A stretch of 34,836 nt of DNA from Desulfobacterales bacterium (GTDB lineage: Bacteria > Desulfobacterota > Desulfobacteria > Desulfobacterales > Desulfosalsimonadaceae): positions 1 through 34,836 of the forward strand of contig JAGYOX010000020.1 in NCBI GenBank assembly GCA_018399235.1, in the 5' to 3' direction. Each line of letters opens with the position of its first letter. The first letter of the stretch is position 1. The notes under the pieces are model-generated. The model worked only from the letters and a program-made list of their open reading frames with translations, was not told the origin of the DNA and did not search any database. This document shows, in pieces, positions 1,111 through 26,025 of this stretch. Made by a program: the position numbers and the translations under genes.

Positions 1111-1126
1111 GCTAGGAGCATCGCCA

Positions 1127-6006: not shown

Positions 6007-6033
6007 AATAGATTATAAATAGTGAGGTCATCC

Positions 6034-6702
6034 ATGATTATCGCCGAGAAAAAACCCATCGAAGAGATTATCGGATATATCGATGACTGTGAAAAACTCC
6101 TGATCCTGGGATGCAATGAATGCGTCACGGTCTGTGAAGCGGGCGGGAAAAAAGAAGTCGGTGTTTTGGCCTCCGCCCTTAGAATGTATTTCCTAAACCA
6201 GGGCAGAGAGGTTAAAATTGATGAAATTACGCTGGAAAGGCAGTGTGATCACGAATACCTGGAGGAGATTCGGGATGTGGCCGACCAGTATGATGCCATC
6301 GTATCCCTTGCCTGCGGCGTCGGGGTCCAGTTTTTGGCTGAAAAATATCATTCCCAACGCGTATATCCGGGAGTTAACACCTGTTTCCTGGGGGCTACGG
6401 AGGAACGCGGCCGATGGACCGAGCGCTGCCAAGCCTGTGGTACCTGTATTCTGGCGTATACAGGCGGCATATGCCCGATCGCCCGCTGCGCCAAAAGACT
6501 TTTAAACGGTCCCTGCGGCGGCTCCAGCAACGGCAAATGTGAAATCAACCCGGAGCTGGACTGTGCCTGGCAGCTAATCATAGATCGATTGAAAGCCTTG
6601 GGAAGACTGGAGGATTATGAAAAGCTTTTGGAAATAAAGGACTGGTCTACAGACAGGGCCGGCGGACCCCGCAAAGTTGTCAGGGAGGATATACAAATAT
6701 GA
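6034..6702 (+). CDS. metV: MetV-type zinc/iron-sulfur subunit of methylenetetrahydrofolate reductase
   Basis: A 222-residue cysteine-rich protein of the MetV family, the partner of short MetF in acetogens and other Wood-Ljungdahl bacteria. It has an N-terminal cluster Cys19, Cys27, Cys30, Cys34 (LGCNECVTVC) and a dense C-terminal set: Cys132, 135, 138, 147, 152, 161, 169 and 177, including the hallmark LNGPCGG. Known MetV proteins carry [4Fe-4S] clusters that feed electrons to the MetF flavin. I chose ATG 6034 because GTGAGG (6022-6027) sits at ribosome-binding distance; an in-frame GTG at 6022 lies within that site. It lies 27 nt after mvhD, and its stop overlaps the next metF start (ATGA), which suggests coupled translation of MetV and MetF. 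Cytoplasmic. Confidence 0.9.
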   Translation: MIIAEKKPIEEIIGYIDDCEKLLILGCNECVTVCEAGGKKEVGVLASALRMYFLNQGREVKIDEITLERQCDHEYLEEIRDVADQYDAIVSLACGVGVQFLAEKYHSQRVYPGVNTCFLGATEERGRWTERCQACGTCILAYTGGICPIARCAKRLLNGPCGGSSNGKCEINPELDCAWQLIIDRLKALGRLEDYEKLLEIKDWSTDRAGGPRKVVREDIQI

Positions 6703-7631
6703 GTGATACAGCGCGGAGTAGACTGCACAGGATGTTATTGGAAGGCCACTTGGCTGTCACTTCGGAATGCGGACCGCCCCGCGGCAGTGACGCCGAATCG
6801 ATCAAAAAAAAGGCGGAGATGATAAAAGATTATGTTGATGCCGTAAACATAACGGACAACCAGACATCCGTTACCCGGCTCTGCAGCATGGCGGCCTGTA
6901 TCCATTTAAAACTCATGGGGGTTGAACCAGTGCTTCAAATGGTAACCCGGGATCGCAACAGGATTGCCATTCAAAGCGACATCCTGGGGGCGGCCTCCTT
7001 TGATATCCCAAACATGCTCTGTCTGTCCGGTGATCACCAGAGCTTTGGCGACTGTCCTCAGGGGCAGAACGTTCATGACATCGACTCCATGCAGCTAATC
7101 CAGACCGTCCGCCTGATGCGGGATGAAGGTAAATTCCTGGGCGGTGCGGAAATCAACCGGCCGCCGAATATGTTCGTGGGTGCGGCCGCCAATCCGTTCG
7201 CCGATCCGTTTGAGATCCGGGTGCCGAGGTTGGCTAAAAAAGTGGCTGCCGGCGCGGAATTTATTCAAACCCAGTGCATTTACAATCTGGACAAGTTTGA
7301 AGAATGGATGAAAGGCGTCTGCGACCGCGGGCTTCATGAGAAAGTTTACATACTGGCAGGGGTCACGCCCTTTAAATCCGCCGGCATGGCCAAATTCATG
7401 AAAAACCGGGTGCCGGGCATGGATGTACCCGATGAGGTAGTCAAACGAATGGCGGATACCCCTAAGGAAAAGCAACCCGAAGAAGGCATCAATATCTGCA
7501 TCGAGAGCATCGAACGGCTAAAAACCATCAAAGGGGTTAGCGGATTTCATATCATGGCTATTGAATGGGAGCAAAAGGTTCCGGAAATCGTTGAACGCGC
7601 CGAATTGTATCCGCGGCCGAAAATAGATTGA
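6699..7631 (+). CDS. metF: methylenetetrahydrofolate reductase (MetF paralogue 2)
   Basis: A 310-residue MetF flavoprotein, the catalytic subunit that converts 5,10-methylene-H4folate to 5-methyl-H4folate, or the reverse when organic carbon is oxidised through the Wood-Ljungdahl pathway. SECGPP gives Glu23 at the E. coli Glu28 position, and LSGDHQ gives Asp112 at the Asp120 position, so both key acids are present. FVGAAANPF and the repeated TRDRNRIAIQ region are typical of the family. Unlike E. coli MetF it has no NADH partner of its own here; the translationally coupled MetV just upstream, with MvhD and HdrA, probably supplies electrons. The start is well set by AGGGAGG upstream and ATGA overlap with metV. 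I regard this copy as the main reductase because it is directly coupled to metV. Confidence 0.92.
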   Translation: MSDTARSRLHRMLLEGHLAVTSECGPPRGSDAESIKKKAEMIKDYVDAVNITDNQTSVTRLCSMAACIHLKLMGVEPVLQMVTRDRNRIAIQSDILGAASFDIPNMLCLSGDHQSFGDCPQGQNVHDIDSMQLIQTVRLMRDEGKFLGGAEINRPPNMFVGAAANPFADPFEIRVPRLAKKVAAGAEFIQTQCIYNLDKFEEWMKGVCDRGLHEKVYILAGVTPFKSAGMAKFMKNRVPGMDVPDEVVKRMADTPKEKQPEEGINICIESIERLKTIKGVSGFHIMAIEWEQKVPEIVERAELYPRPKID

Positions 7632-12362: not shown

Positions 12363-13652
12363 ATGCAGAAATTTCCATTTGCCTTGTATAATATGGGATG
12401 GCGATTGGCCATACCGCTCCTTAGATTAAATCCCCGCCTAAAAGACGGATATGCGGCTCGCATGATGAGGGAGCCGCTACATGGACCGGTCGACATTTGG
12501 ATTCAGGCGGCATCGGCCGGAGAGGCTTACCTCGCCGTTTCCCTGTTGGAAGCCATGCCGACGACTAACAGGAAGTTCAAGATACTGGTCAGCACCAATA
12601 CCCGGCAGGGCATGGAAATTCTGGAAAAAGCCAGGGCTGAGATAAAGACCCAAGCGCCTCAACTTAATATGGAGCTGACATTTTTTCCATTTGATAAACC
12701 GTCCATAATGGAATCGGTGGTCCGGCAGATTAATCCCCGGGTAATGGTATTGCTGGAAACCGAATTATGGCCGGGGCTTTTATCCGTATTACATAAATAT
12801 GGCTGCAAAATATTTGTTATAAACGCCCGAATGACACCTAAGAGCCTAAAAAGATACCGGATGCTTCCCAACCTCTGGAAAAAACTGGCGCCGGACCGGG
12901 TGCTTGCCATATCCAGGGCCGATGCAGACCGTTTTGCCGAACTCTTCGGTCGCGAAACCGTCGAAGTCATGCCGAACATGAAGTTCGAGCGGGTCAGCCT
13001 GAGTGACTCGCTTAATGACAAAGGCCGCGGTCTTAATGGGCTGCTTCCCCAACAGACCCACTTTCTGGTGCTAGGCTCCGTCAGGCAGGAAGAAGAATCA
13101 GATATCCTAAAAATGATCGGGAAGATTAAAAGCCATTTTCCCGATCTTATTATCGCTCTTTTCCCACGCCATATGCATCGACTGAACGCCTGGCGACAAC
13201 ATCTTGAAAAAATAAAAAGAAACTGGATATACCGGTCTTCCCTTTCAAATGAACCGGTCAAAGAGGGAACCATTATATTATGGGATACATTTGGCGAGTT
13301 GAGTGCGGCTTACGCCATAGCCACGGCGGTTTTTGTGGGGGGTAGTCTGGCGCCATTAGGGGGGCAGAATTTTCTGGAACCTTTAATCCACGGCGTAATT
13401 CCGGTCATCGGACCGTCATGGGAGAACTTCGCCTGGGTCGAAGAAGGCCTTTTCTCTTTAGGGTTGGTACGGAAAACAAGAAACTGGCAGACGGCGGCCG
13501 CGGAATTAATCAACCTGATTGACAACCCACCGCCCCGGAAAGAGATCCAGGGCATGGCCGCGGACTATATAAAGAAAAGAAAGGGAGGGGCGGAGCAGGC
13601 ATGCCGGCTGATCATGCAAACGCTTAACTCCCAATCAACGGGCCAGGCATGA
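12363..13652 (+). CDS. waaA: 3-deoxy-D-manno-octulosonic acid (Kdo) transferase
   Basis: A 429-residue GT-B glycosyltransferase that adds Kdo from CMP-Kdo to lipid IVA on the inner face of the cytoplasmic membrane. The family's QAASAGE motif is present, with the catalytic base Glu54. The C-terminal half carries LGSVRQEEES, LFPRH and the nucleotide-binding GGSLAPLGGQNFLEP loop with the invariant Glu. A short hydrophobic, basic N-terminus (ALYNMGWRLAIPLLRLNP) fits membrane association. Length is normal (about 420-430). Whether it adds one, two or more Kdo units cannot be read from sequence. It is followed by kdsB with a 4-nt overlap, so donor supply and transfer are coupled. Confidence 0.95.
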   Translation: MQKFPFALYNMGWRLAIPLLRLNPRLKDGYAARMMREPLHGPVDIWIQAASAGEAYLAVSLLEAMPTTNRKFKILVSTNTRQGMEILEKARAEIKTQAPQLNMELTFFPFDKPSIMESVVRQINPRVMVLLETELWPGLLSVLHKYGCKIFVINARMTPKSLKRYRMLPNLWKKLAPDRVLAISRADADRFAELFGRETVEVMPNMKFERVSLSDSLNDKGRGLNGLLPQQTHFLVLGSVRQEEESDILKMIGKIKSHFPDLIIALFPRHMHRLNAWRQHLEKIKRNWIYRSSLSNEPVKEGTIILWDTFGELSAAYAIATAVFVGGSLAPLGGQNFLEPLIHGVIPVIGPSWENFAWVEEGLFSLGLVRKTRNWQTAAAELINLIDNPPPRKEIQGMAADYIKKRKGGAEQACRLIMQTLNSQSTGQA

Positions 13653-14416
13653 TGGCAGATAAACCGAACTGCTACGGCATTATTCCGGCAAGGTACGCCT
13701 CAACCCGTTTTCCGGGAAAGCCTTTGGCTGATATTTGCGGAAAACCCATGTTTTGGCATGTATACCACCGGGCCAAACAGTGTCCTGATATCTCAGATGT
13801 TTATCTCGCGACAGATGACGAACGGATTGTTGAAGCGGCGAAAAGCCTGGATGTCCCGGTCACTATCACCCGCATCGACCACGCCAGCGGAACAGACCGG
13901 GTATTTGAAGCCGCGACAAAATTAAACATAAGTATCAACGATGTGGTGATCAATATCCAGGGGGATGAGCCGGTATTAAACCCCATGATACTGTCCGAGT
14001 TAGTCCGGCCTTTCGCGAATCCGAGTATTTGTGTCACCACGCCGGTCCGACCGATCGATCCGGAAAGTGCCGAAAGCCCGGACCGGGTAAAAGTCGTATT
14101 TACGCCCAAAAACGAGGCATTATATTTTTCCCGCGCCCGGATCCCCTTTGCCAGGAAAACAGGGACAGAAAAATTTTACGGCCATATCGGCATGTATGCG
14201 TTCCGAATGTCCGCACTGGCAAAATTTGTCTCGCTTCCGCCCGGGCGGATTGAAACCATAGAAAAACTCGAGCAACTGCGCCTGCTTGAAAACAAAATTC
14301 CGGTTCACGTCGTCATCACGGATCATGAAAGCCTGAGCGTGGACCGGCCAGAGGACCTTGAAGCGGTTGTCCGATATCTTGCCCGCAGCCAGAACCAAAA
14401 TTTAAATCATACTTGA
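13649..14416 (+). CDS. kdsB: 3-deoxy-manno-octulosonate cytidylyltransferase (CMP-Kdo synthetase)
   Basis: A 255-residue cytoplasmic enzyme that activates Kdo with CTP to give CMP-Kdo, the donor used by WaaA. The nucleotide-binding start IIPARYASTRFPGKPL is diagnostic, followed by ATDDERI, DHASGTDR and NIQGDEPV with the metal-binding Asp, and the C-terminal SVDRPEDL. Length matches E. coli KdsB (about 248). Two Met codons stand in tandem at 13649 and 13652; the first overlaps the waaA stop (ATGA). It belongs to a three-gene unit waaA-kdsB-methyltransferase. Confidence 0.96.
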   Translation: MMADKPNCYGIIPARYASTRFPGKPLADICGKPMFWHVYHRAKQCPDISDVYLATDDERIVEAAKSLDVPVTITRIDHASGTDRVFEAATKLNISINDVVINIQGDEPVLNPMILSELVRPFANPSICVTTPVRPIDPESAESPDRVKVVFTPKNEALYFSRARIPFARKTGTEKFYGHIGMYAFRMSALAKFVSLPPGRIETIEKLEQLRLLENKIPVHVVITDHESLSVDRPEDLEAVVRYLARSQNQNLNHT

Positions 14417-14426
14417 AGGAAAAAAT

Positions 14427-15008
14427 ATGGCGCTTCATCTGATTAACGATCTTTTCAATAACGAAAACGTCCGGTCCGTATTCTTAAAACTCAGATACCC
14501 GTTATTTATCCTACTGCTGGTGCTCCTGCTGACGCAGATCAAACCCTGTTGGTTCATTCCGGGGCTTATTGTCTCGATATTGGGTGAATTATTCCAGGTA
14601 TGGTGTTTTTCAACCATTAAAACCAAAAAAAAACTCACCCGGGTCGGTCCCTACATGCTCATGCGCAACCCCATGTATATCGGTCGATTCTTTCTTATAT
14701 TCGGCGTGTTGATGATGACCGGCAATCCCTGGATACTTATCGGCTTTACCATCCTTTACTACTTCTATATGGTCAACCGGGTCAGGCGGGAAGAAAAAAC
14801 CCTAAGCCGAATATTCGGTGAGGAATATGAGAAATACTGTCAAACGGTAAACCGCTATATTCCCAGATTAAAAAACGTCCAGCCCCAAAAATTATTCGCC
14901 GTCTCATCAGAGAGCTTTTTTCAAAACAATGCCCATTGGAATATACTTCTGGTCGTATTCTGCTATATCGTATTGTTCTGTGCGACTTTTATCTGGCCGG
15001 TCGCGTAG
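14427..15008 (+). CDS. isoprenylcysteine/phospholipid methyltransferase-like membrane protein
   Basis: A 193-residue integral membrane protein with four or five hydrophobic segments (about 25-42, 46-62, 84-100, 102-120 and 170-190). The core GPYMLMRNPMYIGRFFLIFG plus the C-terminal REEKTLSRIFGEEYEKYCQTVNRYIPR is the hallmark of the ICMT/PEMT superfamily: the GPY/RNPMY stretch and the Glu-rich end bind S-adenosylmethionine and substrate. The exact acceptor is unknown. The context, after waaA-kdsB and facing lpxK, suggests a lipid or LPS-related substrate, but this is only guilt by association. GAAGGAAAA precedes ATG 14427, 10 nt after kdsB. Its last 20 nt overlap the 3' end of lpxK on the other strand. 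The extra hydrophobic C-terminal helix after the catalytic motif is a small oddity. Confidence 0.8.
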   Translation: MALHLINDLFNNENVRSVFLKLRYPLFILLLVLLLTQIKPCWFIPGLIVSILGELFQVWCFSTIKTKKKLTRVGPYMLMRNPMYIGRFFLIFGVLMMTGNPWILIGFTILYYFYMVNRVRREEKTLSRIFGEEYEKYCQTVNRYIPRLKNVQPQKLFAVSSESFFQNNAHWNILLVVFCYIVLFCATFIWPVA

Positions 15009-16122
15009 GTTCTATTAACTGGTTGATATAATTCATTAATGGTTCCCGATCACCGCGGAAATCCATTTGTATCCCGACGACAGCCATATCTACCGGCGTT
15101 TTCATGCGACCATGGATCCGGGCATAATCTTTTTGTGTGGTAACCACACAATCAACTGATAAATGTTTGGCGCGTTTAAAAACCTGATTTAAATCGGTCG
15201 CAGAATAGTCAAAATGATCCGGGAATTCAAAAAAATCCACCAGTTGTGCAGGGGCTTCCGTAATCATCCGTTTAAATTCTGTGTTTCTGGCAATCCCGGA
15301 AAATCCCAAAACCCGTTGATTTTTTAGGGGGTCGAGATCATTTGGATGGTTGTTGGCCGCGATACTAACAGGCATTTCTTCGTTGGCCTTCACAATGCCG
15401 CATAAAAATGGTTGATTAACCGACCGAAAAGTTGGTGTATGGGGCAAGGCCTCCGATATTTTGGCTTCAAGCATCGAGTCTGGATAGTCTGCCCGCGTCA
15501 TCACGATGGCATCAGCCCGCGCCAGAGCCGCCAGAGGTTCCCGCAAAATCCCCCTGGGCAACAGATAACGGTTCCCGAATCCAACGGTGGCATCCACCAA
15601 TACAAAATCAATATCCCGGTATAGCCGGCGATGCTGAAAGGCATCATCTAAAATAATGACATCCGGAGAAAACGTGGCTATTGCTGTCTTGCCGATTGTG
15701 TAGCGATCCGCCCCCACGAGAAAAGGAATATGCGTCAAATACGAGGCCATCATGAACGGCTCATCCCCCGCCTGTTCCGGACCCATCAAAATGTTTTCGC
15801 CGTCACTGACCACACCGCCTGTTTTTTCCATTTGGCCCTTGTACCCCCGGCTGATGACCGCCGGGGAATACCCATAATCCCGGAGCATTTGCGCCAGATA
15901 CATTGTCATGGGCGTCTTGCCGCTGCCGCCGACCGTCAGGTTGCCAACGGATATGACCCGGCATGGGAGGCGATACTCATGCAGCACGCCGCTTTCATAT
16001 CCTTTGGCCCGAAGACGGCTACCTGCGTCATATATGCCGGATAAAAAATACAGTCCCTTTTCCAATACCGTCCGGTTCTGCCGGGCATCATTTTTCATGC
16101 ATGCCTGAATCCGGGCCGACAT
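14989..16122 (-). CDS. lpxK: tetraacyldisaccharide 4'-kinase
   Basis: A 377-residue monotopic membrane kinase that phosphorylates the 4' position of the lipid A disaccharide to make lipid IVA, the acceptor for WaaA across the convergent junction. The P-loop (NLTVGGSGKTP, about 61-71) and the catalytic LDDAFQHRR (E. coli TDDGLQH, with Asp99) are clear, as is LLPRGILREP. It is about 50 residues longer than E. coli LpxK (328), mainly at the N-terminus and middle. Start choice is uncertain: ATG 16122 has AGGGG at a somewhat long distance, while an in-frame TTG at 16158 would overlap lptG by 8 nt and add 12 residues. It is the last gene of the long outer-membrane operon. Confidence 0.93.
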   Translation of the reverse strand: MSARIQACMKNDARQNRTVLEKGLYFLSGIYDAGSRLRAKGYESGVLHEYRLPCRVISVGNLTVGGSGKTPMTMYLAQMLRDYGYSPAVISRGYKGQMEKTGGVVSDGENILMGPEQAGDEPFMMASYLTHIPFLVGADRYTIGKTAIATFSPDVIILDDAFQHRRLYRDIDFVLVDATVGFGNRYLLPRGILREPLAALARADAIVMTRADYPDSMLEAKISEALPHTPTFRSVNQPFLCGIVKANEEMPVSIAANNHPNDLDPLKNQRVLGFSGIARNTEFKRMITEAPAQLVDFFEFPDHFDYSATDLNQVFKRAKHLSVDCVVTTQKDYARIHGRMKTPVDMAVVGIQMDFRGDREPLMNYINQLIEPTRPAR

Positions 16123-16150
16123 TGATTCTAAAACCCCTGCACGATTTTTA

Positions 16151-17227
16151 CTACTCAAGATTTAACACCATGAAACCGGCGATACAGATAAAAATCAAAT
16201 TTGCCATCCATGCAGCCAGCATAGGGGGCAGAATCTCCCCATAGCCGAGCGACAGACAAAAACTGTATAAAGACCAATATACAAAAGCGGTAACAATACC
16301 ATAGGCAAAGCTGACGGCCATGCCCTCCCGCGTTTTTCCCCTCAACGCAATGGCGGACCCGACTATACACATAATCAAACAGACGGCCGGAAACGCCGTC
16401 TTTGCATACAAATCAACTTTGTATTGGGTCGCATCATAGCCATTGCGCTCTACTTGATAGATATAGTTCCGCAACCTAGAAAAATTCATTTCTTCTGCGG
16501 ATTTGGCCACCCGCTTCAAATCATCGGGCGTCAACGGCAAATCAACCGTTTTCTCATCATAGAACGCGCTGTCGGGGTTGCCCTCCACGCCGTCAAAATG
16601 CTGAACCATGGCTGAAAAAAATGTCCATTGCCCGTTTTTATAGACGCCTTTCTGAGCATCGATGCGCCGGCTCAGATGAAATTCACCATCAAAAACCATC
16701 GTGCTGACGCCGTAAATAATGTTTTCTGCCGGATGGAAATACTGAATATGGGTTATGCCCCGATGGTGCCGAAGCCATATGTTTTTTTCCTTGGATGTCA
16801 CCATCTGCCTGCTGCCGGATTTTCCTTCCTCCAGTTGGAACGCCCGGCCGATCGTAATAGGAACCAAGGCTTCTGAAAAAATAAACAGCCCTGCACTTAA
16901 AACCAAGCCGATGACCATGACAGGAATCAGCAGGTATTTCAAACTCACACCGGAACTCTTGAGCGCAACCACCTCGTTGTTTTTTGACATTAACCCGAAT
17001 ACGACCAAAACGCCCAGCAATACCGCCACCGGCGTTATCTGGGAGATAATCAGCGGCACCTTGTAAACAAAAAAGAGCACCATTTGGATGGGCTGCAATT
17101 CGGCCTCAATCAAATTATCCATCTTGCCAAATACATCGATGGAAAGGTAGATTGCTATCACCATTACCATCACAATGCCAAAAAACTTAAAAAACATTCG
17201 GGTAATATAACGGTGAATGATGGGCAT
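16151..17227 (-). CDS. lptG: LPS export ABC transporter permease LptG
   Basis: A 358-residue YjgP/YjgQ-family permease. With LptF it forms the transmembrane part of the LptB2FG complex that extracts LPS from the inner membrane and pushes it into the periplasmic Lpt bridge. There are three N-terminal membrane helices (about 13-33, 48-80, 98-120), a periplasmic beta-jellyroll (about 130-265) and three C-terminal helices (about 270-355). NNEVVALKSSGVSL is the conserved coupling-helix region that docks on the ATPase LptB. I call it LptG and the upstream one LptF by order and by general likeness; the two paralogues are hard to separate by eye. lptB, lptA and lptC are not in the window. It is 7 nt after lptF. 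Confidence 0.92.
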   Translation of the reverse strand: MPIIHRYITRMFFKFFGIVMVMVIAIYLSIDVFGKMDNLIEAELQPIQMVLFFVYKVPLIISQITPVAVLLGVLVVFGLMSKNNEVVALKSSGVSLKYLLIPVMVIGLVLSAGLFIFSEALVPITIGRAFQLEEGKSGSRQMVTSKEKNIWLRHHRGITHIQYFHPAENIIYGVSTMVFDGEFHLSRRIDAQKGVYKNGQWTFFSAMVQHFDGVEGNPDSAFYDEKTVDLPLTPDDLKRVAKSAEEMNFSRLRNYIYQVERNGYDATQYKVDLYAKTAFPAVCLIMCIVGSAIALRGKTREGMAVSFAYGIVTAFVYWSLYSFCLSLGYGEILPPMLAAWMANLIFICIAGFMVLNLE

Positions 17228-17234
17228 AAGAATT

Positions 17235-18386
17235 TCAGTGCTTGAATACTCTAAAAAATTGAAACCGTATCATCGGTCTGTCGTTTGCCACTCTGATGAG
17301 AAGGTAGATGCCGCCCAATCCCATAACTATATTGGGCGCCCACATACCGATCGCCGGCGGATAAATACCGGTTTCCCCAAAGACGATACCACCGGAGAGC
17401 ATGACATAGTACAATAAAAAAGCAAACAATCCGATCCCGAGACCGGCGGAACGCCGGGTTGAGACTGACCCAATTCCCAACGGCACCGCCAGTATGGCCA
17501 GGGCAAGACTGGCGACCGGAATGGAAAATTTTTTATGAAATTCCATCAATACGGAATAATAGCGTGAGGTGTCCTCCTTTTTTCCGCTCAGATAACTGTT
17601 GATTTCAGAAAGGGTCATTTCCTTTTCATCTTTCTTTCCATCCTTGATATCAGCCAATGCGTTTTTAAAGTCCAACCGCAGGTCATACGTATCAAAACGG
17701 ATGGTATGCGCGGAATGATCCGCCAGATCCACCTGATTAATAGTGCCGTCATAAAGCCTTAATATGAGAGTATATTCATTTGCCCCGGCAAACATATACC
17801 CCTCTGGCGCCACAACAGTGCTGCTTATGTCGGCTTTGCGCTGATCCTCGATAAAAATGTCTTCCAGTGTCTTATTTTTCAGGTTGATATGATTCACATA
17901 AAATGTAACTCCTTCAAAACTATCGTTAAACTGCTTTTCTTTGAGTCCGACATTGAAATTGGAGCGAGCAACGTCAAGGGCCAGAATTTTAGATGCATTG
18001 CTACCCCAGGGCATTCCATAAATCGCCATAAATCCGGTTAATCCCGCGCAGATGAGCCCAAAAATCAAGACGGGCGGCAACAACTGGTAAAGGCTGACGC
18101 CCCCGGCTTTTAGTGCGACGATCTCGTTATCGCCGGACATCCGCAAAAACGTAAGGAGGACGCTCATCATGACGGACATGGGAATAATATAGACTAGAAA
18201 ATAAGGCATGGAATAAAGCAGCATCAGCATAAACGCCACGAAGCTGACCTGATAGTTGACAATCATGTTTGTAATCTCAAGAATCTGTTCCATCAAAAAA
18301 ATAAATGAAAAAAACACCAGATTGATCACAAACGGCGGGATAAATTCCCGTAACAGGTATCGATGGATGATCGAATTAGATTTCAT
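17235..18386 (-). CDS. lptF: LPS export ABC transporter permease LptF
   Basis: A 383-residue YjgP/YjgQ-family permease, half of the LptFG transmembrane pair for LPS extraction. MKSNSIIHRYLLREFIPPF is a typical LptF start; helices lie at about 17-37, 47-78 and 97-120, the periplasmic domain at about 125-280 and the last three helices at about 285-365. DNEIVALKAGGVSL is the coupling helix and matches the same region in LptG. ATG 18386 lies 14 nt after msbA, so flipping (MsbA) and extraction (LptFG) are co-expressed. There is no sign of damage or unusual composition. Confidence 0.93.
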   Translation of the reverse strand: MKSNSIIHRYLLREFIPPFVINLVFFSFIFLMEQILEITNMIVNYQVSFVAFMLMLLYSMPYFLVYIIPMSVMMSVLLTFLRMSGDNEIVALKAGGVSLYQLLPPVLIFGLICAGLTGFMAIYGMPWGSNASKILALDVARSNFNVGLKEKQFNDSFEGVTFYVNHINLKNKTLEDIFIEDQRKADISSTVVAPEGYMFAGANEYTLILRLYDGTINQVDLADHSAHTIRFDTYDLRLDFKNALADIKDGKKDEKEMTLSEINSYLSGKKEDTSRYYSVLMEFHKKFSIPVASLALAILAVPLGIGSVSTRRSAGLGIGLFAFLLYYVMLSGGIVFGETGIYPPAIGMWAPNIVMGLGGIYLLIRVANDRPMIRFQFFRVFKH

Positions 18387-18400
18387 GATGGGATTTTACC

Positions 18401-20188
18401 CTATGCCATCGCCCCCTGTACTGAAGAAGCGCCGGCCTGGGTCTCAGTGAACTGAACTTTATAGAGTCTATAATACTCGCCTTTACGGGCAAGCAGTTCC
18501 GAATGCGCTCCTTTTTCAACGATACGTCCCCCCGCCAGTACGATAATACGGTTGGCGTAATGAACCGTAGACAGACGATGGGCAATGACAAATGAGGTGC
18601 GGCCTTTCATGAGGTTTTCCAATGCCTTTTGGACCAAACGCTCCGATTCGGTGTCCAAGGCGGCGGTGGCTTCGTCGAGAATCAAAATCGGGGCGTCCTT
18701 TAACAGCGCCCGGGCAATACACATCCGCTGCTTTTGTCCCCCGGAAAGCCGGTTGCCAAGCTCCCCAATATTCGTATCGAATCCTTTGGGCAGCGATTGA
18801 ACAAAACTAAGAATATATGCCGCTTCAGCGGCTTCTTCAATTTCTTTCTCCGACGCCTCCAGGTTGCCATACGCGATATTGGCCCGGATCGTATCATTAA
18901 AAAGAATCGGTTCCTGGGTAACAATGGCGATTTCCTTGCGAAGATTGGCAATGGCGATATTTCGGATATCAATCCCGTCGATTTTAATTGCTCCGCCGGT
19001 GACGTCATAGAATCGGGGAACCAGATTGACGAGTGTGGTTTTTCCCCCGCCGCTGGCACCGACAATGGCCAAAATTTCACCCGGTTCCACCGTCAAACCG
19101 ATATTTTCTAAAACCGTTTCCTCCCCGTCATAGGAAAAGGAAACATTATCAAATTCAATCCGGTGAACTCGCCGCGGCAACAGCACCGGTTCTTTTGGTT
19201 CCTCAATATCCGATTCGGTTTCCAAAACTTCAAATACACGATCCGCTGCGGCAAGTCCTTGCTGGGCCGTATTGTTTAATTTACTTAGCTTCTTGACAGG
19301 CGGATAGAGAAGCATCACAGCCGTCATAAAAGAAAAAAACGTGCCGGGTGTTGAAGACCCATCAATGACCTTGTGACCGCCATACAAGATAACCAGGGCT
19401 ATGCCTACACCGCCAAAAATTTCCATTACCGGAGAGGTCAGCGCCCTGGCCCGAAGTGATTTGACGGCAAACCGGAAAACCTTTTGATTTTTTCGAAAAA
19501 AGTTCTGCTTTTCATAGGCTTCCATGCCAAAAGCTTTTACAATTTTATTGCCGGAAAATTTTTCATGAAGAAATGCGTTTAAATCCCCCATGGATTCCTG
19601 GCCGCGGGTGGAAAACCTTCGTATGCGGCGGCCGAACTCGACGACCGGAAAAAATGCCACAGGCAATACAACCATAGCGATTAACGCAAGCTTCCAATCC
19701 CGATAAAAAATTACGCCGATCAAGCCAAGGATGGTGAAAATATCTCTAAGCCCGCCGGTTACCGCCCGTGACACCATATTTTTTATAACACTGACATCAT
19801 ATGTAATCCTTGACATTAATACGCCGGTTCGCTGGTCTAAAAAAAAGGACAGCGGCAAATCGCTGATCTTGTTATACAGGCTGTCACGCAACTGTTTGAT
19901 GATTCTCTCGCCCACATAATGCATTAAAAAATCCTGGCCGTACATCGCGGCTCCCCGCAACAGATAAATGATAATGATCAAGCTCGGCATGAGTTTGAGC
20001 ATAAATTCGTTTTTATTCAAAAAAACGTCATCAAGCACGGGTTTGACAATAAATGCGGTGGCCGAAGTGGTGGCCGCCCCAAGCAACATGCAGATCATCG
20101 CCAGTATAAGTCTTACCCACTCTCCCTTAACATAGGCGATCAGTTCCTGATTCCGTTTCTGGATAATTTTTTTTCGGCTTTTCTGCAT
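18401..20188 (-). CDS. msbA: lipid A export ATP-binding/permease protein MsbA
   Basis: A 595-residue half-size ABC exporter that flips core-lipid A from the inner to the outer leaflet of the cytoplasmic membrane. It has six membrane helices in residues about 25-320, then the ATPase: Walker A GASGGGKTTL, Q-loop VTQEP, signature LSGGQKQR, Walker B ILILDEATAALD and the H-loop IAHRLS. Length and layout equal E. coli MsbA (582). In this family close paralogues export peptides or drugs, but placement between lpxB and lptF makes a lipid A flippase the clear choice. The gene follows lpxB by 23 nt. Confidence 0.94.
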   Translation of the reverse strand: MQKSRKKIIQKRNQELIAYVKGEWVRLILAMICMLLGAATTSATAFIVKPVLDDVFLNKNEFMLKLMPSLIIIIYLLRGAAMYGQDFLMHYVGERIIKQLRDSLYNKISDLPLSFFLDQRTGVLMSRITYDVSVIKNMVSRAVTGGLRDIFTILGLIGVIFYRDWKLALIAMVVLPVAFFPVVEFGRRIRRFSTRGQESMGDLNAFLHEKFSGNKIVKAFGMEAYEKQNFFRKNQKVFRFAVKSLRARALTSPVMEIFGGVGIALVILYGGHKVIDGSSTPGTFFSFMTAVMLLYPPVKKLSKLNNTAQQGLAAADRVFEVLETESDIEEPKEPVLLPRRVHRIEFDNVSFSYDGEETVLENIGLTVEPGEILAIVGASGGGKTTLVNLVPRFYDVTGGAIKIDGIDIRNIAIANLRKEIAIVTQEPILFNDTIRANIAYGNLEASEKEIEEAAEAAYILSFVQSLPKGFDTNIGELGNRLSGGQKQRMCIARALLKDAPILILDEATAALDTESERLVQKALENLMKGRTSFVIAHRLSTVHYANRIIVLAGGRIVEKGAHSELLARKGEYYRLYKVQFTETQAGASSVQGAMA

Positions 20189-20211: not shown

Positions 20212-21363
20212 CTATTTGACATTATCTGAGAGCATTTTAAAGGCAATGTCGGCCGTTCGTTCGGAGGCACCGGGACTGCCCAGTCGATTACGCACGGATT
20301 TCAATTTCTGCCGGATACTGTTCAGCCGTTCGGGATTGTTTAAAATTTCCACAGCCTCACGGGCAATGTTTGCCGGATTAGCATCCGCCTGGATCAATTC
20401 CGGGACAATGCGCTCGCCGGCGATGATGTTGACCAATCCGATATGGTCCACATTCACCAAGGCCTCTCCCAATCGATAGCTGAGGGCTGAGACCCGGTAT
20501 ATAATTACCATGGGAACGCCAAATATAGCTGTTTCTAGAGTAACTGTGCCAGATGCAGCCAAAACGAGTGCGCTTTTTTTAAATACCTGACGGACTTCCC
20601 CCGTGATTCGGTCGATGCGACAGCCTTGCATATACGGCCTGATAAATTGATCCGCCCATTCCCGATCAATCCCCGGTGCAATGGAAATCAAAAACCGGAC
20701 GTCAGGAAAAACCTCCTGAATCCAGGTAGCCGCCGCAAGCATCACAGGGAGATTTTTTTCAATTTCACTTCGCCGAGATCCCGGTAATATGCCGATGGCC
20801 AGGGCGTTGTTATTATCATCTTCATTGACTAACGCCTGCTCCTCATAATAATCCAGCAGCGGATGCCCCACAAAGGTTGCCTGAATATTATGATTTCGGT
20901 AGTAATCTTCCTCAAACGGCAGAATCACAGCCATTTGATCAACATATTGCCTGATTTTTTCGACGCGCCCGGACCGCCATGCCCAGATCTGCGGGCTGAT
21001 ATAATACAACACCGGCACGCCTTGGTTTTTAGCAAGCTTTGCAATATGAAGGTTAAAATCCGGAAAATCGATAAGTATGATCAAATCCGGGTGCAACCCA
21101 TTAAATATTTTTTTGATTGCCGATATCCCGCTGAAAACTTTCGGTATCTTTGATATGACTTCGGTAATGCCCACCACTGAAAGTTCATGAGCCTCCACCA
21201 AGAGCCGCACGCCTTCGGCTTTCAAACGCTCGCCCCCAATACCGCAGAAAAACATATGCTCATCCTTTTTCCGCATGGCGCGAACCAGATGGGCTCCATG
21301 AAAATCCCCGGATGTTTCACCGGCTATGATCACAATACATTTCGGGGTTTCATCACCGATCAT
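20212..21363 (-). CDS. lpxB: lipid A disaccharide synthase
   Basis: A 383-residue GT-B glycosyltransferase that joins UDP-2,3-diacylglucosamine and lipid X into the tetra-acyl disaccharide phosphate. IAGETSGDFHGAHL is the canonical N-terminus; YYISPQIWAWRSGR, ILPGSRRSEI and LAASGTVTLETAIFGVPMVIIYR are diagnostic family blocks. The protein is a peripheral inner-membrane enzyme. ATG 21363 is preferred; an in-frame GTG at 21369 immediately follows the stop of the upstream dehydrogenase and would add two residues. LpxI, which makes its lipid X substrate, is two genes upstream. Confidence 0.96.
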   Translation of the reverse strand: MIGDETPKCIVIIAGETSGDFHGAHLVRAMRKKDEHMFFCGIGGERLKAEGVRLLVEAHELSVVGITEVISKIPKVFSGISAIKKIFNGLHPDLIILIDFPDFNLHIAKLAKNQGVPVLYYISPQIWAWRSGRVEKIRQYVDQMAVILPFEEDYYRNHNIQATFVGHPLLDYYEEQALVNEDDNNNALAIGILPGSRRSEIEKNLPVMLAAATWIQEVFPDVRFLISIAPGIDREWADQFIRPYMQGCRIDRITGEVRQVFKKSALVLAASGTVTLETAIFGVPMVIIYRVSALSYRLGEALVNVDHIGLVNIIAGERIVPELIQADANPANIAREAVEILNNPERLNSIRQKLKSVRNRLGSPGASERTADIAFKMLSDNVK

Positions 21364-21369
21364 GACCAC

Positions 21370-22326
21370 CTATTCCATAAACTGACGGCTTGATTCCTTG
21401 ATTTGCCGGGTAATACTTAACGCAATGTTTAATGCCTCCCGCCCCATTTGACCCGAGACCTCGGGGTTACCGCGCTTATCCACGACATCTAGAAATGAGC
21501 GGATTTCATTTTGCAATGCATCCCCTTGCTCAAAACTGCGTTCCTCCATCTGCATACCCGGTACCGGCGAGTTCTTGCCGTTTTCGCCGGGCCAGATATG
21601 AATAATGGAGCGGTTGGCAAAATCCAGCGATAAATATCCATCTTTTTGGAACAACCGGATTTTGCGTTCATTTTTACTTGAAATCCGACTGGCCGTAACA
21701 TTTGCCACCGCCCCGTTTTCAAACTCCAGATGGGCGTTTGCAATATCCACATGCTCTGACACCACGGGCGCGCCCATGGCATGGGAATAGGACAGCCCAG
21801 ATCTAACAAAATTTAATATAATATCAATATCATGTATCATCAAATCCAGAACGACGCTGACATCCGTCCCCCTTTCATGATACAGGCTCAGCCGATTGGA
21901 TTCAATAAACATTGGATTTTTGATGATATCCTTTACTTCCATGACCGCCGGATTAAATCTTTCCAAATGCCCGACCTGCAATATAAGTCCTCGTTTTTCA
22001 GCGATATCGATTAACTCATCCGCCTCGGAGATTGTCATTGTGATCGGCTTCTCAATCAGCACATCGATACCGCTTTCAAGAAATGCCTTGGCAATTTTAT
22101 AGTGATCGGGCGTGGGAACGGCGATACTCACCGCATCTACACGGCCAAAAAGTTCGCGGTAATCAGTAAAAGCTTGGGTCCCATGCTTTTTTGCAATCTG
22201 CCCGGCTTGGTCTTTGTCGATATCTACAACAGCGATTAATTCTGCAAGATCGGCATCGGCATATTTCTCCGCATGAAACTTACCCAGATAACCAACGCCG
22301 ACAACGCCGGCCCGAATTCTTTCCAT
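21370..22326 (-). CDS. Gfo/Idh/MocA-family NAD(P)-dependent sugar dehydrogenase in the lpx operon
   Basis: A 318-residue oxidoreductase: an N-terminal Rossmann fold (GVVGVGYLGKFHAEKY, with VVDID for the adenosine ribose) and the family's catalytic pair Glu92-Lys93-Pro94 and the DLMIHDID block (Asp161, His165). Family members oxidise or reduce sugar carbons, often on UDP-sugars. Its place between lpxI and lpxB implies a UDP-GlcNAc-type substrate. In Acidithiobacillus ferrooxidans the related GnnA oxidises UDP-GlcNAc at C3, and the aminotransferase GnnB then makes UDP-GlcNAc3N for amide-linked lipid A. No gnnB is in this window, so the GnnA role is a hypothesis. Alternatives are other UDP-sugar or inositol-like oxidations. 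It is 49 nt after lpxI and 6 nt before lpxB. AAAGGAT precedes its ATG. Confidence 0.88.
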   Translation of the reverse strand: MERIRAGVVGVGYLGKFHAEKYADADLAELIAVVDIDKDQAGQIAKKHGTQAFTDYRELFGRVDAVSIAVPTPDHYKIAKAFLESGIDVLIEKPITMTISEADELIDIAEKRGLILQVGHLERFNPAVMEVKDIIKNPMFIESNRLSLYHERGTDVSVVLDLMIHDIDIILNFVRSGLSYSHAMGAPVVSEHVDIANAHLEFENGAVANVTASRISSKNERKIRLFQKDGYLSLDFANRSIIHIWPGENGKNSPVPGMQMEERSFEQGDALQNEIRSFLDVVDKRGNPEVSGQMGREALNIALSITRQIKESSRQFME

Positions 22327-22375: not shown

Positions 22376-23200
22376 TTAATCGTCGGAACGATTCAGCGCA
22401 ACAATTGAAATTTTCCATCGATCAGCCAAATCGACCATTTCCGCCTGATCAAAAACCAACGATTTCCCCGCTTCGATAGCAAGCACCGAAGCCCCCGACT
22501 CATGCATGGTTCTGATGGTTTCTGAGCCAACCGCCGGGATATCAAAGCGGAAGTCCTGAATCGGTTTGCAGACTTTTACAACCACTGCGTTGCCGCTTGT
22601 CAACCGGCCGCCGCGACGAATGGTGCTGTCCGTACCGTCAATAGCCTCAACCGCCAATACCGATCCGTTGGAGACGACGACACACTGGCCGATATCGAGT
22701 TTGCCAATGGCTTTCGCCATTTTCCAACCCATCTCAATGTCAGGCTGCTCCTCTTTTTTGGGTTTGCGCTTTGTCCAGCAGCCTTCCTGGGCCAGTAATT
22801 CGGGGAGTAAAAACGTTGATGGCCGGATGTAGATGCCCTCATCCTCCAGGGCTTTGGCAAAAACCCGCAGCACCCGGTCATCATGGGTATTTTGCCGCAT
22901 TCCGGCATATAAAGAAATGGCCTTGATATCCGGACGGACCTCGGTAATCGATCCCGGCTTTTTGATTGCCCCGATCATGACCGCATCTGTTATCTGATGT
23001 CGTTTAAAAAATTTAATCAGCCGCTTGATCTGCCCGATATATATGGTCTCTACAACCTCAACGCTATCAGCTAATGCCGGATCGGTTTCATTAACATATC
23101 CAATCGCATAAACCTGGTATCCTTTTTCTTTGGCTTTTTGAGAAAAGATCAGCGGGAAAGGACCGCTTCCAGCAATCAAACCGATACGTTGTTGCGTCAT
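22376..23200 (-). CDS. lpxI: UDP-2,3-diacylglucosamine pyrophosphatase LpxI
   Basis: A 274-residue protein of the LpxI (DUF1009) family, which hydrolyses UDP-2,3-diacylglucosamine to lipid X and UMP; it replaces LpxH in alpha-proteobacteria and many other groups. The N-terminus GLIAGSGPFPLIFSQKAK and the C-terminal block RFDIPAVGSETI are diagnostic, with Asp220 matching the catalytic Asp225 of Caulobacter LpxI. SLYAGMRQNTHDDRVLR and VVSNGSVLAVEAIDGTD are further conserved blocks. No lpxH is visible here. It follows lpxA by 11 nt and precedes the Gfo/Idh gene, keeping the pathway order lpxA...lpxI...lpxB. Peripheral cytoplasmic membrane enzyme. Confidence 0.95.
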   Translation of the reverse strand: MTQQRIGLIAGSGPFPLIFSQKAKEKGYQVYAIGYVNETDPALADSVEVVETIYIGQIKRLIKFFKRHQITDAVMIGAIKKPGSITEVRPDIKAISLYAGMRQNTHDDRVLRVFAKALEDEGIYIRPSTFLLPELLAQEGCWTKRKPKKEEQPDIEMGWKMAKAIGKLDIGQCVVVSNGSVLAVEAIDGTDSTIRRGGRLTSGNAVVVKVCKPIQDFRFDIPAVGSETIRTMHESGASVLAIEAGKSLVFDQAEMVDLADRWKISIVALNRSDD

Positions 23201-23211
23201 TTTTTTTAAAG

Positions 23212-23982
23212 CTACCTTGTAATCCCCCGCTCGGTGGATTTGATAAAATTAACCAGAGTTAAGACTTCAGGAGTATTTTCAACCTCCGCGAGGACCCTTT
23301 CCAATGCTTCATTAACCGTCAGGCCAATTCGGAAAATGATTCGGTATGCCTTCTTCAAATTGGATAATGTATTTGCAGAAAACCCATGGCGCTTGAGTCC
23401 CACTTTGTTCAACCCGTGAAGTGTGGCGCGGTCGCCGGCAGCGATGACATATGGAGGAATATCCTTGACGACTGCAGATTTACCGCCGACATAGCCGTAA
23501 TCGCCGATTCGAACAAACTGATGGATCGCCACCAATCCCCCGATAATGACATAATCCCCAATTGTAATATGCCCGGCAAGGGTAGCGTTATTGGCAAGAA
23601 TGACGCCTCTTCCGGTTTTACAATCATGGGCGATATGGGTATAGGCCATTAAAAAATTATCCTCCCCGACTTCGGTGACCCCGCCGCCGAATTCCGTGCC
23701 CCGGTTCAACGTCGCAAATTCCCTGATAATCGTATTTCGGCCGATCTTGAGATAGGTTTTTTCCCCCTTAAACCTGACTGCCTGGGGCACCGCCCCGATT
23801 GACGCATATTGAAAGATTTGACATCCCGGCCCGATTTCAACATAAGGATCTATGGTCACATGGGGGCCGATAACACAATTTGAACCGATCGATACATTAT
23901 CCCGGATAATGGTATAAGGCCCTACCTCTACCGTATCATCAATTTCAGCCCCTGAATCCACAATTGCCGTTGGATGTATCAT
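23212..23982 (-). CDS. lpxA: UDP-N-acetylglucosamine O-acyltransferase
   Basis: A 256-residue left-handed beta-helix protein (trimeric hexapeptide repeats) that moves an acyl chain from ACP to the 3 position of UDP-GlcNAc, the first step of lipid A synthesis. Catalytic His119 lies in HIAHDC (E. coli His125). In HQFVRIGDYGYVGG the second Gly (Gly167) matches E. coli Gly173 of the acyl-chain ruler, which would allow a long chain near C14; this is inference from alignment by eye. GVPQ-like AVPQ keeps the sugar-contacting Gln66. Whether it accepts UDP-GlcNAc or UDP-GlcNAc3N is of interest because of the neighbouring dehydrogenase. Start ATG overlaps the fabZ stop (ATGA). Confidence 0.96.
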   Translation of the reverse strand: MIHPTAIVDSGAEIDDTVEVGPYTIIRDNVSIGSNCVIGPHVTIDPYVEIGPGCQIFQYASIGAVPQAVRFKGEKTYLKIGRNTIIREFATLNRGTEFGGGVTEVGEDNFLMAYTHIAHDCKTGRGVILANNATLAGHITIGDYVIIGGLVAIHQFVRIGDYGYVGGKSAVVKDIPPYVIAAGDRATLHGLNKVGLKRHGFSANTLSNLKKAYRIIFRIGLTVNEALERVLAEVENTPEVLTLVNFIKSTERGITR

Positions 23983-24422
23983 TGGTCTCCTCCGATTAAC
24001 GCCATAAGTTTCGCTTGGGCAACCCGATTTTTTTCGACAAACGCATTGCCGGACATTTTAATAACGCCTGGCCGCCGTTTCCTGATTTCAACCCTGAATA
24101 TCAACTGATCTCCCGGTAATACCGGATTTCTGAACCTTGCCCCATCAATGCCGGCAAAACATACCTGGTTCTTGTCCACATCAGGCAGGGTTTCGTATAA
24201 AAGCAAAGCACCGCTTTGCACCATCCCTTCTATAATCAAAACCCCGGGCATAATCGGCTTATGAGGGAAATGGCCCTGAAAAAACGGCTCGTTGATGGAT
24301 ACATTTTTTAGGGTAACGATTTTTTCATTCGGTATCACCTCCAGCACCCGATCGACAAAAATAAAAGGATACCGGTGCGGAAGCACCGAAAAAATTTTCT
24401 GGGTGTCATATGCCGTCGTCAT
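23979..24422 (-). CDS. fabZ: 3-hydroxyacyl-[acyl-carrier-protein] dehydratase FabZ
   Basis: A 147-residue hot-dog fold dehydratase of type II fatty acid synthesis. Catalytic His is in LPHRYPFIFVDRV, and the Glu in FPHKPIMPGVLIIEGMVQ; both are canonical. It draws on the same 3-hydroxyacyl-ACP pool that LpxA and LpxD use, which explains its usual place in lpx operons. ATG 24422 (MTTAYDTQKI) is preferred over an in-frame TTG at 24443, because it gives the family length and has AGGG upstream. It overlaps lpxA by 4 nt. Cytoplasmic. Confidence 0.95.
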   Translation of the reverse strand: MTTAYDTQKIFSVLPHRYPFIFVDRVLEVIPNEKIVTLKNVSINEPFFQGHFPHKPIMPGVLIIEGMVQSGALLLYETLPDVDKNQVCFAGIDGARFRNPVLPGDQLIFRVEIRKRRPGVIKMSGNAFVEKNRVAQAKLMALIGGDQ

Positions 24423-24452
24423 CTTCTGAAACCCTGAAATCAATCGATTCGA

Positions 24453-25496
24453 TTAACTGTTGTCGGCCTTCCCATTGCCGCTCATTTTTTTTACCATGGA
24501 CTCCAATTTATCCAACCGCTTCTTTATCTCCGGCAACCGCGGGATAATCCGGTTTACCTTAAGCCATTGCCGATGCGGCATTTCCGGAGTCCCAGAGACG
24601 ACCTGGCCCTCGGCTACGGAACGGGAAATCCCCGCCTGGGGACCTATGGTTGCGTAATCACCGATTTTGATATGCCCGGAAATACCCGCCTGCCCGGCAA
24701 GAGTAACGTTTTTACCAATACTGGTGCTGCCGGCGATACCGACCTGGGCAACAATAAGGGTATTTTCACCAACGGTAACATTATGGCCGATATGAACCTG
24801 ATTGTCGGTTTTCACTCCCTTCTGAATCCACGTCTTGCCAAAAGTCGCCCGGTCAATTGTATTGCATGCCCCGATTTCAACATCATCGTCGATTTGCACA
24901 ACCCCAACCTGCGGGATTTTAAAATGACTATCGCCTTCCTGTACAAACCCATAGCCATCACTTCCTATAACCGATCCTGAATGGATAATCACCCGACAGC
25001 CAATCCGACAGTTGTCCAGGATGGTTACGTTTGGATAAACTTCCGTATCATCTCCGACTGTCACATTGTCACCAACAACTACGCCTGGATGAAGACATAC
25101 CCGGTCCCCTATGGTGATATTGTCCCCGATCACAACGGAATAACCGATCGACACATTCTGGCCGGACTCAAAATTAGCTCCGATACACGCTTTTGGGCTG
25201 ATCCCGGCAACCGGTTGGGATTTTGGGAAAAATAGCTGCAAAGCCCTTGCAAATGTCAAACGGGGGGATTTTGAGTATACCAGATTTACCGAAACGGAAG
25301 GGGTAAAACTCCGTGGGACGATAATCGCTCCGGCATTAGAGCCTTCTATTTGTTTGAGGGTTTTTGCGCTATCGGCAAATGTCAGGTCAGTTTTGCCGGC
25401 GGCATCAAAGGGAGCAACGCCGCTTATGACCTTATGCGCATCCCCGGCAATATCCCCGCCGATGATTTCGACCAGTTCGGCAAGCGATATTTCCAT
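24453..25496 (-). CDS. lpxD: UDP-3-O-acylglucosamine N-acyltransferase
   Basis: A 347-residue enzyme that adds the second, N-linked 3-hydroxyacyl chain to UDP-3-O-acyl-glucosamine. An N-terminal uridine-binding domain (about 1-100; NLVYSKSPRLTFARALQLFF) is followed by a left-handed beta-helix of hexapeptide repeats (about 105-310). GSDGYGFV and KTDNQVHIGHNV, with the catalytic His in IGHNV, are diagnostic. A C-terminal helix (about 320-340; LPEIKKRLDKLESMVKKM) is the ACP-recruiting arm. ATG 25496 lies 1 nt after the ompH stop and follows GGGGA, so I prefer it to an upstream in-frame start (25532) inside ompH. Confidence 0.95.
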   Translation of the reverse strand: MEISLAELVEIIGGDIAGDAHKVISGVAPFDAAGKTDLTFADSAKTLKQIEGSNAGAIIVPRSFTPSVSVNLVYSKSPRLTFARALQLFFPKSQPVAGISPKACIGANFESGQNVSIGYSVVIGDNITIGDRVCLHPGVVVGDNVTVGDDTEVYPNVTILDNCRIGCRVIIHSGSVIGSDGYGFVQEGDSHFKIPQVGVVQIDDDVEIGACNTIDRATFGKTWIQKGVKTDNQVHIGHNVTVGENTLIVAQVGIAGSTSIGKNVTLAGQAGISGHIKIGDYATIGPQAGISRSVAEGQVVSGTPEMPHRQWLKVNRIIPRLPEIKKRLDKLESMVKKMSGNGKADNS

Positions 25497-25497
25497 G

Positions 25498-26025
25498 TCA
25501 ATTCCCCGAATAGCTCTCATTATATTTTGCAATCAGCTTATCCGTTATATCAATGGAGTTGGGGTAATAGAGTGCCGCTCCCTTTTCGATAATGAGCAGA
25601 TATCCTTCGTTTTTGCCGATTTCCTCAGCCAGTCCAAAAACATCGGTTTGCAATTTTTCAAGCAGTTTACCTTCAATTTCACGCAACTGTGATTGATATT
25701 TTTTCTGTTTGGACTGAAAATCATATTTTTTAATATCCAGTTCACGCTGTTTTTCCTCGCGTTTTTTCCTGCTCATCACCATTGCCTCCCGGCTCAGCTT
25801 TTCATTAAGTTCTTCTATTTCGTTGCCGAGGGCACGGATATCGGTTTCCATTTCACGCCCCTTTTCCTGAAGCTGGGCCTGAATATCTTTACCGGCTTCG
25901 GATTCGGTCAGAATCCGCTGCAAATCCACAACGCCGATCTTTGCTATATCCGCTGCAAATGACGGACAGGTAAACATTACAATTGTTGCGATACATGCAA
26001 AAATGGTAACAGATGCGCGCATCAT
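25498..26025 (-). CDS. skp: periplasmic chaperone OmpH/Skp
   Basis: A 175-residue secreted chaperone that binds unfolded outer-membrane proteins on their way to BamA. A Sec signal peptide spans about 1-24 (hydrophobic stretch, likely cut after PSFA). IGVVDLQRIL is the family's first strand; residues about 48-125 form the long charged coiled-coil tentacles (repeated Glu/Lys/Arg, SKQKKYQSQLREIEGKL), and a short beta-rich end follows. Two Met codons (26025 and 26022) both sit within reach of GGGGG (26031-26035). The gene lies between bamA and lpxD as in many Gram-negative bacteria. Confidence 0.93.
   Translation of the reverse strand: MMRASVTIFACIATIVMFTCPSFAADIAKIGVVDLQRILTESEAGKDIQAQLQEKGREMETDIRALGNEIEELNEKLSREAMVMSRKKREEKQRELDIKKYDFQSKQKKYQSQLREIEGKLLEKLQTDVFGLAEEIGKNEGYLLIIEKGAALYYPNSIDITDKLIAKYNESYSGN

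Follow-up and report, generated by a model that had tools for sequence, protein, structure and literature searches.

An lpx-operon gnnA and an unlinked aminotransferase candidate point to probable amide-linked lipid A in a Desulfobacterales bacterium

Introduction

Acyl chains bound through an amide resist alkali and many esterases, and they alter the way in which host receptors view lipid A. In Campylobacter jejuni, loss of gnnA/gnnB raises the activation of TLR4 (PMC8036547, excerpt), and the chemistry of the GnnA/GnnB pair is described in excerpts of three articles (PMC8036547, PMC3342949, PMC5644692). Lipid A containing GlcN3N is reported for Legionella and Campylobacter (PMC7956469, excerpt). 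The gnnA and gnnB genes of M. loti lie apart from each other (PMC5644692, excerpt); an unlinked pair is therefore not new, and a gnnB beside gnnA is not required. The lipid A of D. desulfuricans reportedly has a glucosamine disaccharide that carries chains in ester as well as in amide linkage (PMC3354558, excerpt), and the abstract and the results text of that paper disagree on which of the acyloxyacyl residues are bound as esters and which as amides.

The chemistry is thus familiar from other bacteria, and its probable spread through the Desulfobacterota appears to have been little noticed. A literature search, with most subscription papers outside its reach, found no publication on gnnA in this phylum. 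The following sections concentrate on a stretch of 34,836 nucleotides from a Desulfobacterales bacterium, denoted here as the window, on the genome from which it derives, and on related loci in the same order and phylum.

The gnnA Gene and the lpx Operon

The gene of interest is an open reading frame with an ATG start on the minus strand (Table 1), and the plus strand of the same interval is rich in stop codons. Its product matches PF01408 with 112.5 bits, which identifies it as a Gfo/Idh/MocA protein, the sole PF01408 protein found in the genome. In an alignment of 20 sequences, the window protein included, the residues of both motifs, Glu-Lys-Pro and Asp-Leu-Met-Ile-His-Asp (DLMIHD), are invariant except Leu162. 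An earlier reading made from the sequence only had described a Gfo/Idh dehydrogenase with these motifs intact, placed between lpxI and lpxB; both statements hold, and lpxB directly abuts gnnA. The same reading had seen no aminotransferase in the window. The five full-length DegT proteins of the genome, run against the window by tblastn, gave nothing below E = 0.36, so that this claim is correct for the DegT family.

The neighboring genes were named by Pfam/NCBIfam profile matches. They follow the order lpxD-fabZ-lpxA-lpxI-gnnA-lpxB-msbA, then lptF, lptG, and lpxK. With the NCBIfam model, lpxI scores 145 bits, below the cut-off of 400. Elsewhere in the window (238-7631), a cluster encodes a pair of methylenetetrahydrofolate-reductase domains along with an MTHFR C-terminal protein and an FAD/Fe-S oxidoreductase of 1392 aa.

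Table 1. Position and annotation of gnnA and neighboring genes in the window.
Gene	Coordinates	Strand	Product	Remarks
kdtA/waaA-like	12363-13652	+	Kdo transferase	divergent from lpx operon
kdsB	13649-14416	+		divergent from lpx operon
lpxK	14989..16158	-	tetraacyldisaccharide 4'-kinase	
lptG	16151-17227	-	LPS export permease	
lptF	17235-18386	-	LPS export permease	
msbA	18401..20188	-	lipid A export ABC transporter	618 bits, above cut-off
lpxB	20212..21369	-	lipid-A-disaccharide synthase	308 bits, above NCBIfam cut-off
gnnA	21370..22326	-	predicted Gfo/Idh/MocA UDP-GlcNAc 3-dehydrogenase	318 aa; E92-K93-P94, D161-x-x-x-H165-D166
lpxI	22376..23200	-	UDP-2,3-diacylglucosamine diphosphatase	Pfam LpxI_N and LpxI_C above cut-off
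lpxA	23212..23982	-		only LpxA found in genome
fabZ	23979..24443	-	3-hydroxyacyl-ACP dehydratase	Pfam/NCBIfam
lpxD	24453..25532	-	UDP-3-O-acylglucosamine N-acyltransferase	Pfam/NCBIfam

Relationship to Characterized GnnA

Among solved structures, the top match of the window protein is 7bvj, with 206.6 bits (runner-up, 73.7 bits), whose title in the fold search reads GnnA from Acidithiobacillus ferrooxidans; the two proteins are 36% identical across the whole length. The window protein was modelled by AlphaFold (pLDDT 93.9), and a Foldseek comparison of the model with known folds gave a TM of 0.92 and an rmsd of 1.8 to 7bvj, against a TM of 0.80 for the runner-up by E-value and of 0.80-0.87, with larger rmsd, for the remaining Gfo/Idh entries among the matches listed. 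The best NCBIfam model is NF040723, an archaeal UDP-GlcNAc 3-dehydrogenase, at 222.9 bits (cut-off, 450), and no bacterial GnnA model came up among the NCBIfam matches of the window protein.

A FastTree phylogeny of 121 proteins, in which the comparison outside the GnnA set consists of only four other Gfo/Idh proteins, sets the 117 leaves of that set, the window protein and 7bvj included, apart from the rest by a long branch (length 1.38). The tree was rerooted and its root-branch support of 0.18 may belong to another branch; reliance is placed on the branch length and on the bit scores, which against the window protein amount to 210-414 for the 115 other members of the set and to 71-87 for the four other proteins. 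The suggestion of a possible GnnA, for which a phylogeny against GnnA had been proposed as a check, is thus borne out by bit score, tree, and fold alike: the window protein groups with the A. ferrooxidans enzyme and apart from the four other Gfo/Idh proteins. On this homology, the gene is assigned with high confidence as a putative gnnA.

A Candidate GnnB Outside the Operon

The genome, assembled to 3.47 Mb in 299 contigs and 92.8% complete, encodes five full-length DegT proteins and shows five weaker partial matches. A genome search for gnnB had also been proposed from the sequence, and it yielded a good candidate outside the window: DegT2 (contig C92:61-1257), far from the lpx operon. Its gene precedes bioF, bioD, and bioA; in relatives (L042, L043, L044, L045, L047, L055) it follows dnaE, in some of them after a small intervening gene (the dnaE and bio gene names were verified on L044 and L012 only). 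DegT2 orthologues are found in 28 of the 40 genomes of the order set, its own included, and the 27 others are 62-81% identical to it. Lys194, which we take to be the PLP lysine, is invariant in 15 sequences.

The fold nearest to the DegT2 model (pLDDT 91.5) is that of the Archaeoglobus sugar transaminase 7b0d, followed by QdtB, DesV, WbpE, Pcryo_0616, and WlaRG, with C4 enzymes such as ArnB ranking lower. The five that follow 7b0d are C3 aminotransferases of sugar nucleotides. WbpE and Pcryo_0616 aminate C3 of a UDP-3-keto-GlcNAc derivative, in its glucuronic acid form, for the O-antigen.

For comparison with DegTs encoded next to gnnA, 80 gnnA loci from genomes of many phyla were surveyed, a DegT being counted as linked if full, less than 400 bases from gnnA, and on the same strand. 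Such a gene is present in 28 loci; for all 28, DegT2 is the best of the five DegTs of the genome, at about 39-45% identity. In a quick tree with SH-aLRT supports, the first clade (99) comprises DegT2, its relatives from the order, and some DegTs of other phyla; the linked GnnBs make up a second (99), and WbpE with two Legionella DegTs a third (100). These clades join as a superclade of 3-keto-sugar aminotransferases (94) in a three-way fork without resolved order. QdtB, DesV, 7b0d, and the four other DegTs of the genome, among them DegT5, a WecE by model score, fall outside.

The neighborhoods of DegT2-like genes beyond the order are varied: none of 20 regions sought there (one, from G213, belongs to the order) has lpx operon genes beside the DegT gene. 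In G093 and G064, two members of a single family, a hexapeptide (NeuD-like) acetyltransferase adjoins the DegT2-clade gene (L219:8584-9258 and L220:8096-8701), an arrangement as in pathways for 3-acetamido/O-antigen sugars.

DegT2 is regarded as the likely GnnB on account of its phylogeny, its phyletic pattern, and the single Gfo/Idh enzyme of the genome. Judged from these comparisons, a GnnB partner unlinked to gnnA is very probably present. Less expected is the placement of this GnnB candidate in an orphan clade of its own.

Distribution in the Order and the Phylum

GnnA is present in 35 of the 40 genomes of the order set, the genome under study included. The lpx neighbors of gnnA recur in 25 loci of this and related genomes, in three of which (L019, L031, L035) gnnA or one neighbor was unresolved by the simple ORF method. 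The phylum was sampled with 198 genomes chosen for spread, completeness of at least 95% being requested for all except the genome under study, and 169 of them carry GnnA. Forty of these were hand-picked for spread over families and their loci inspected: in all 40, one or more of lpxA, lpxB, lpxD, and lpxI lies within 5 kb of gnnA on its strand, lpxB being such a neighbor in 39, and a DegT is also nearby in four. This generality of the arrangement is likewise less expected. In a deltaproteobacterial MAG (L083:5090-8536), gnnA is separated from lpxB, inside the lpx operon, by a Gabija-like defence pair, of which GajA scores 745 bits and GajB is divided between two ORFs.

LpxA is present in 19 of the 29 phylum genomes devoid of GnnA, and lpxI runs directly into lpxB in the three GnnA-less loci checked for gene order (L230, L231, L236). 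The other ten have no LpxA match either (G116, G138, G159, G178, G197, G215, G232, G249, G141, G148); the first eight, G116 to G249, come from one family, f52, and may lack LPS.

The co-occurrence of GnnA with the candidate aminotransferase was followed through the same sample. Among the matches listed, a DegT sharing 51% identity or more with DegT2 occurs in 53 phylum genomes, all of which have GnnA, and in none of the 29 GnnA-less genomes (Fisher test, 6.6e-5, kinship uncorrected); 51 of the 53 were taken from hand-typed rows and two, G132 and G202, from the GnnA table. Side-by-side gnnA and DegT genes were seen in 13 phylum genomes among the matches listed, these DegTs showing 42-50% identity. 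The two groups of genomes do not overlap (chance, 0.006, kinship uncorrected, among the matches listed), which looks like a single function filled by one or the other of two gene lineages, the DegT2-like and the gnnA-adjacent DegTs. The majority of the phylum genomes with GnnA fall in neither group, showing no close DegT2 and no adjacent DegT among the matches listed. In three cases (L108 of Desulfogranum marinum DSM 2058, i.e. G044:C165; G094:C1; G120:C15), gnnA and a DegT2-like gene share one contig, about 38-39 kb apart.

Within the order set, nine of the 35 GnnA-bearing genomes are without DegT2 at 62% identity or above. A search for dnaE in seven of the nine showed that the match stops at base 3 of the contig in G007, G016, and G017, that G020 has none, and that G024 has a distant homologue only. 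Since these five assemblies break off at the locus or lack it, the absence of DegT2 from them was dropped as evidence against the pairing. In G030 and G034, dnaE is present and DegT2 absent; together with G031 and G035, which likewise have GnnA without DegT2, they make four members of the order that count against easy generalisation. G034 and G035 carry WbpE-clade DegTs (L151, L155). The reverse, DegT2 without a GnnA match, was encountered in G005 (60% complete) and G023 (85%).

LpxA and Its Sugar Pocket

The LpxA of L. interrogans is amine-selective. Apart from the LpxA of the window, the genome yields two other matches of 29-32% identity, one of them lpxD, and thus holds a single LpxA. It keeps all catalytic His residues, His119 corresponding to E. 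coli His125. In E. coli LpxA, the GlcNAc pocket includes Asp74 and Lys76, and the pocket Asp is listed for all seven LpxA orthologues, L. interrogans included (PMC7072397, excerpt). In the window protein, they are replaced by Ala68 and Arg70, respectively.

Asp74 is lost in eight of 36 LpxAs from GnnA-bearing genomes (window included) vs. none of 19 from GnnA-less genomes (p 0.04, uncorrected). Ala or Ser occupies this column in the window protein and in the six other GnnA-bearing members of the order in the set. G195, of the same order and without gnnA, keeps Asp74; its LpxA falls inside the clade of the order, with the exact place weakly supported. The loss in this order may be a single event. 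For this reason, and since L. interrogans keeps the Asp, the loss of Asp74 as a mark of a preference for UDP-GlcNAc3N is a lead, not proof.

The alignment columns that differ between the same 36 and 19 LpxAs were also ranked, and five exceeded a threshold set by shuffling, with kinship disregarded. Of these, the window protein departs clearly from the majority of GnnA-bearing genomes at one, column 96, and has the second commonest letter at column 89. Two candidate markers were dropped: Tyr at E. coli column 120, also found in LpxAs of GnnA-less genomes and in 4eqy, and Val at column 200, common in GnnA-less genomes too. For the latter column, the L. interrogans residue given is Val195 (PMC7072397, Table 1, excerpt).

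Proposed Pathway and Alternative Readings

We consider it probable that GnnA and an unlinked GnnB, DegT2, make UDP-GlcNAc3N, from which LpxA forms an amide, leading to amide-linked lipid A. By homology to A. ferrooxidans GnnA, the window enzyme would oxidise the 3''-OH of UDP-GlcNAc with NAD+ to a 3-keto sugar; DegT2 would then add an amino group at C3, yielding UDP-GlcNAc3N, and the single LpxA would acylate the C3 amine. LpxC, LpxD, LpxI, LpxB, and LpxK would continue as usual. The predicted lipid A would contain GlcN3N as both sugars, with its four primary chains amide-linked. The case for the steps predicted from homology is strong, and beyond them we infer the substrates, the preference of LpxA, and the structure of the lipid A.

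LpxA could also take UDP-GlcNAc beside the UDP-GlcNAc3N made by GnnA and DegT2, resulting in a mixed or hybrid lipid A, perhaps in a condition-dependent manner. Such an outcome, seen as GlcN/GlcN3N backbones in Campylobacter (PMC7956469, excerpt) and Capnocytophaga (PMC3342949, excerpt) and compatible with the full set of catalytic His residues in LpxA, is unlikely here: the Capnocytophaga case is explained by two LpxA genes (PMC3342949, excerpt), so that the one found in this genome makes a fixed backbone of that kind less likely, and the LpxA sugar pocket of this order differs at Asp74. It is decidedly unlikely, too, that another of the four DegTs or an unassembled one acts as GnnB in place of DegT2, which would leave the lipid A outcome unchanged. 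The incomplete and fragmented assembly leaves room for it, and DegT2 stands outside the linked-GnnB clade; however, the remaining four DegTs fall outside the whole superclade, with DegT5 scoring as WecE, and DegT2 is kept over the order like a core gene.

It is very improbable that UDP-GlcNAc3N is destined for a 3-acetamido sugar of the core or O-antigen, with placement in the lpx operon serving co-regulation only. WbpE, of the nearest characterized clade to DegT2, does act in O-antigen assembly, and the NeuD-like acetyltransferase in G093 and G064 would suit such a route, but the operon position is kept in all 40 inspected phylum loci, and other taxa repeat the order gnnA-gnnB-lpxB, in many cases behind lpxA, unlike the variable O-antigen loci. 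Moreover, no second Gfo/Idh protein that could play the role of WbpB was found in the genome; given the single PF01408 protein, the assembly offers DegT2 no other Gfo/Idh partner. Scarcely credible is a generic or vestigial Gfo/Idh enzyme without relation to UDP-GlcNAc: the family is broad and the archaeal model reaches 223 of 450 bits, yet the motifs are intact, the protein is conserved in 35 of 40 order genomes, and GnnA is the nearest relative by sequence and fold.

Beyond the pathway by GnnA and DegT2 in this organism, a wider reading is put forward tentatively, with doubt slightly outweighing belief: GlcN3N lipid A would be ancestral and common in the Desulfobacterota, with an unrecognised third GnnB clade encoded away from the lpx genes in many lineages and with an LpxA devoid of Asp74 in this order, where the otherwise fixed residue would have been lost as the enzyme grew dependent on the amino sugar. 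The ester-bound glucosamine lipid A reported for D. desulfuricans, compared by chemistry alone, speaks against a phylum-wide rule.

Significance and Comparison With Known Systems

If gnnA marks amide-linked lipid A across these anaerobes, a basic outer-membrane property of many sulfate and metal reducers would become predictable from genomes. For genomes in which gnnA has no gnnB next to it, the DegT2 clade offers a definite candidate for the part of the pathway that is missing there.

The window GnnA shares its fold, the invariant Lys, and the His/Asp motifs with A. ferrooxidans GnnA (7bvj, 7bvk) and differs from that entry in that the gnnB candidate is not beside gnnA. In the gnnA-gnnB-lpxB clusters of Geobacteraceae, Methylococcaceae, Thioalkalivibrio, and Limnohabitans, gnnA occupies the same slot before lpxB, whereas their DegT adjoins gnnA and belongs to another clade than the DegT encoded elsewhere in the organism studied here. 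WbpE of P. aeruginosa is a member of the DegT2 superclade; with Pcryo_0616, it is near DegT2 by fold at 35-36% identity. The gene order of Legionella resembles that of the window, with gnnA beside lpxB, no adjoining DegT, and a DegT elsewhere in the genome, but the DegT of Legionella groups with WbpE and not with DegT2.
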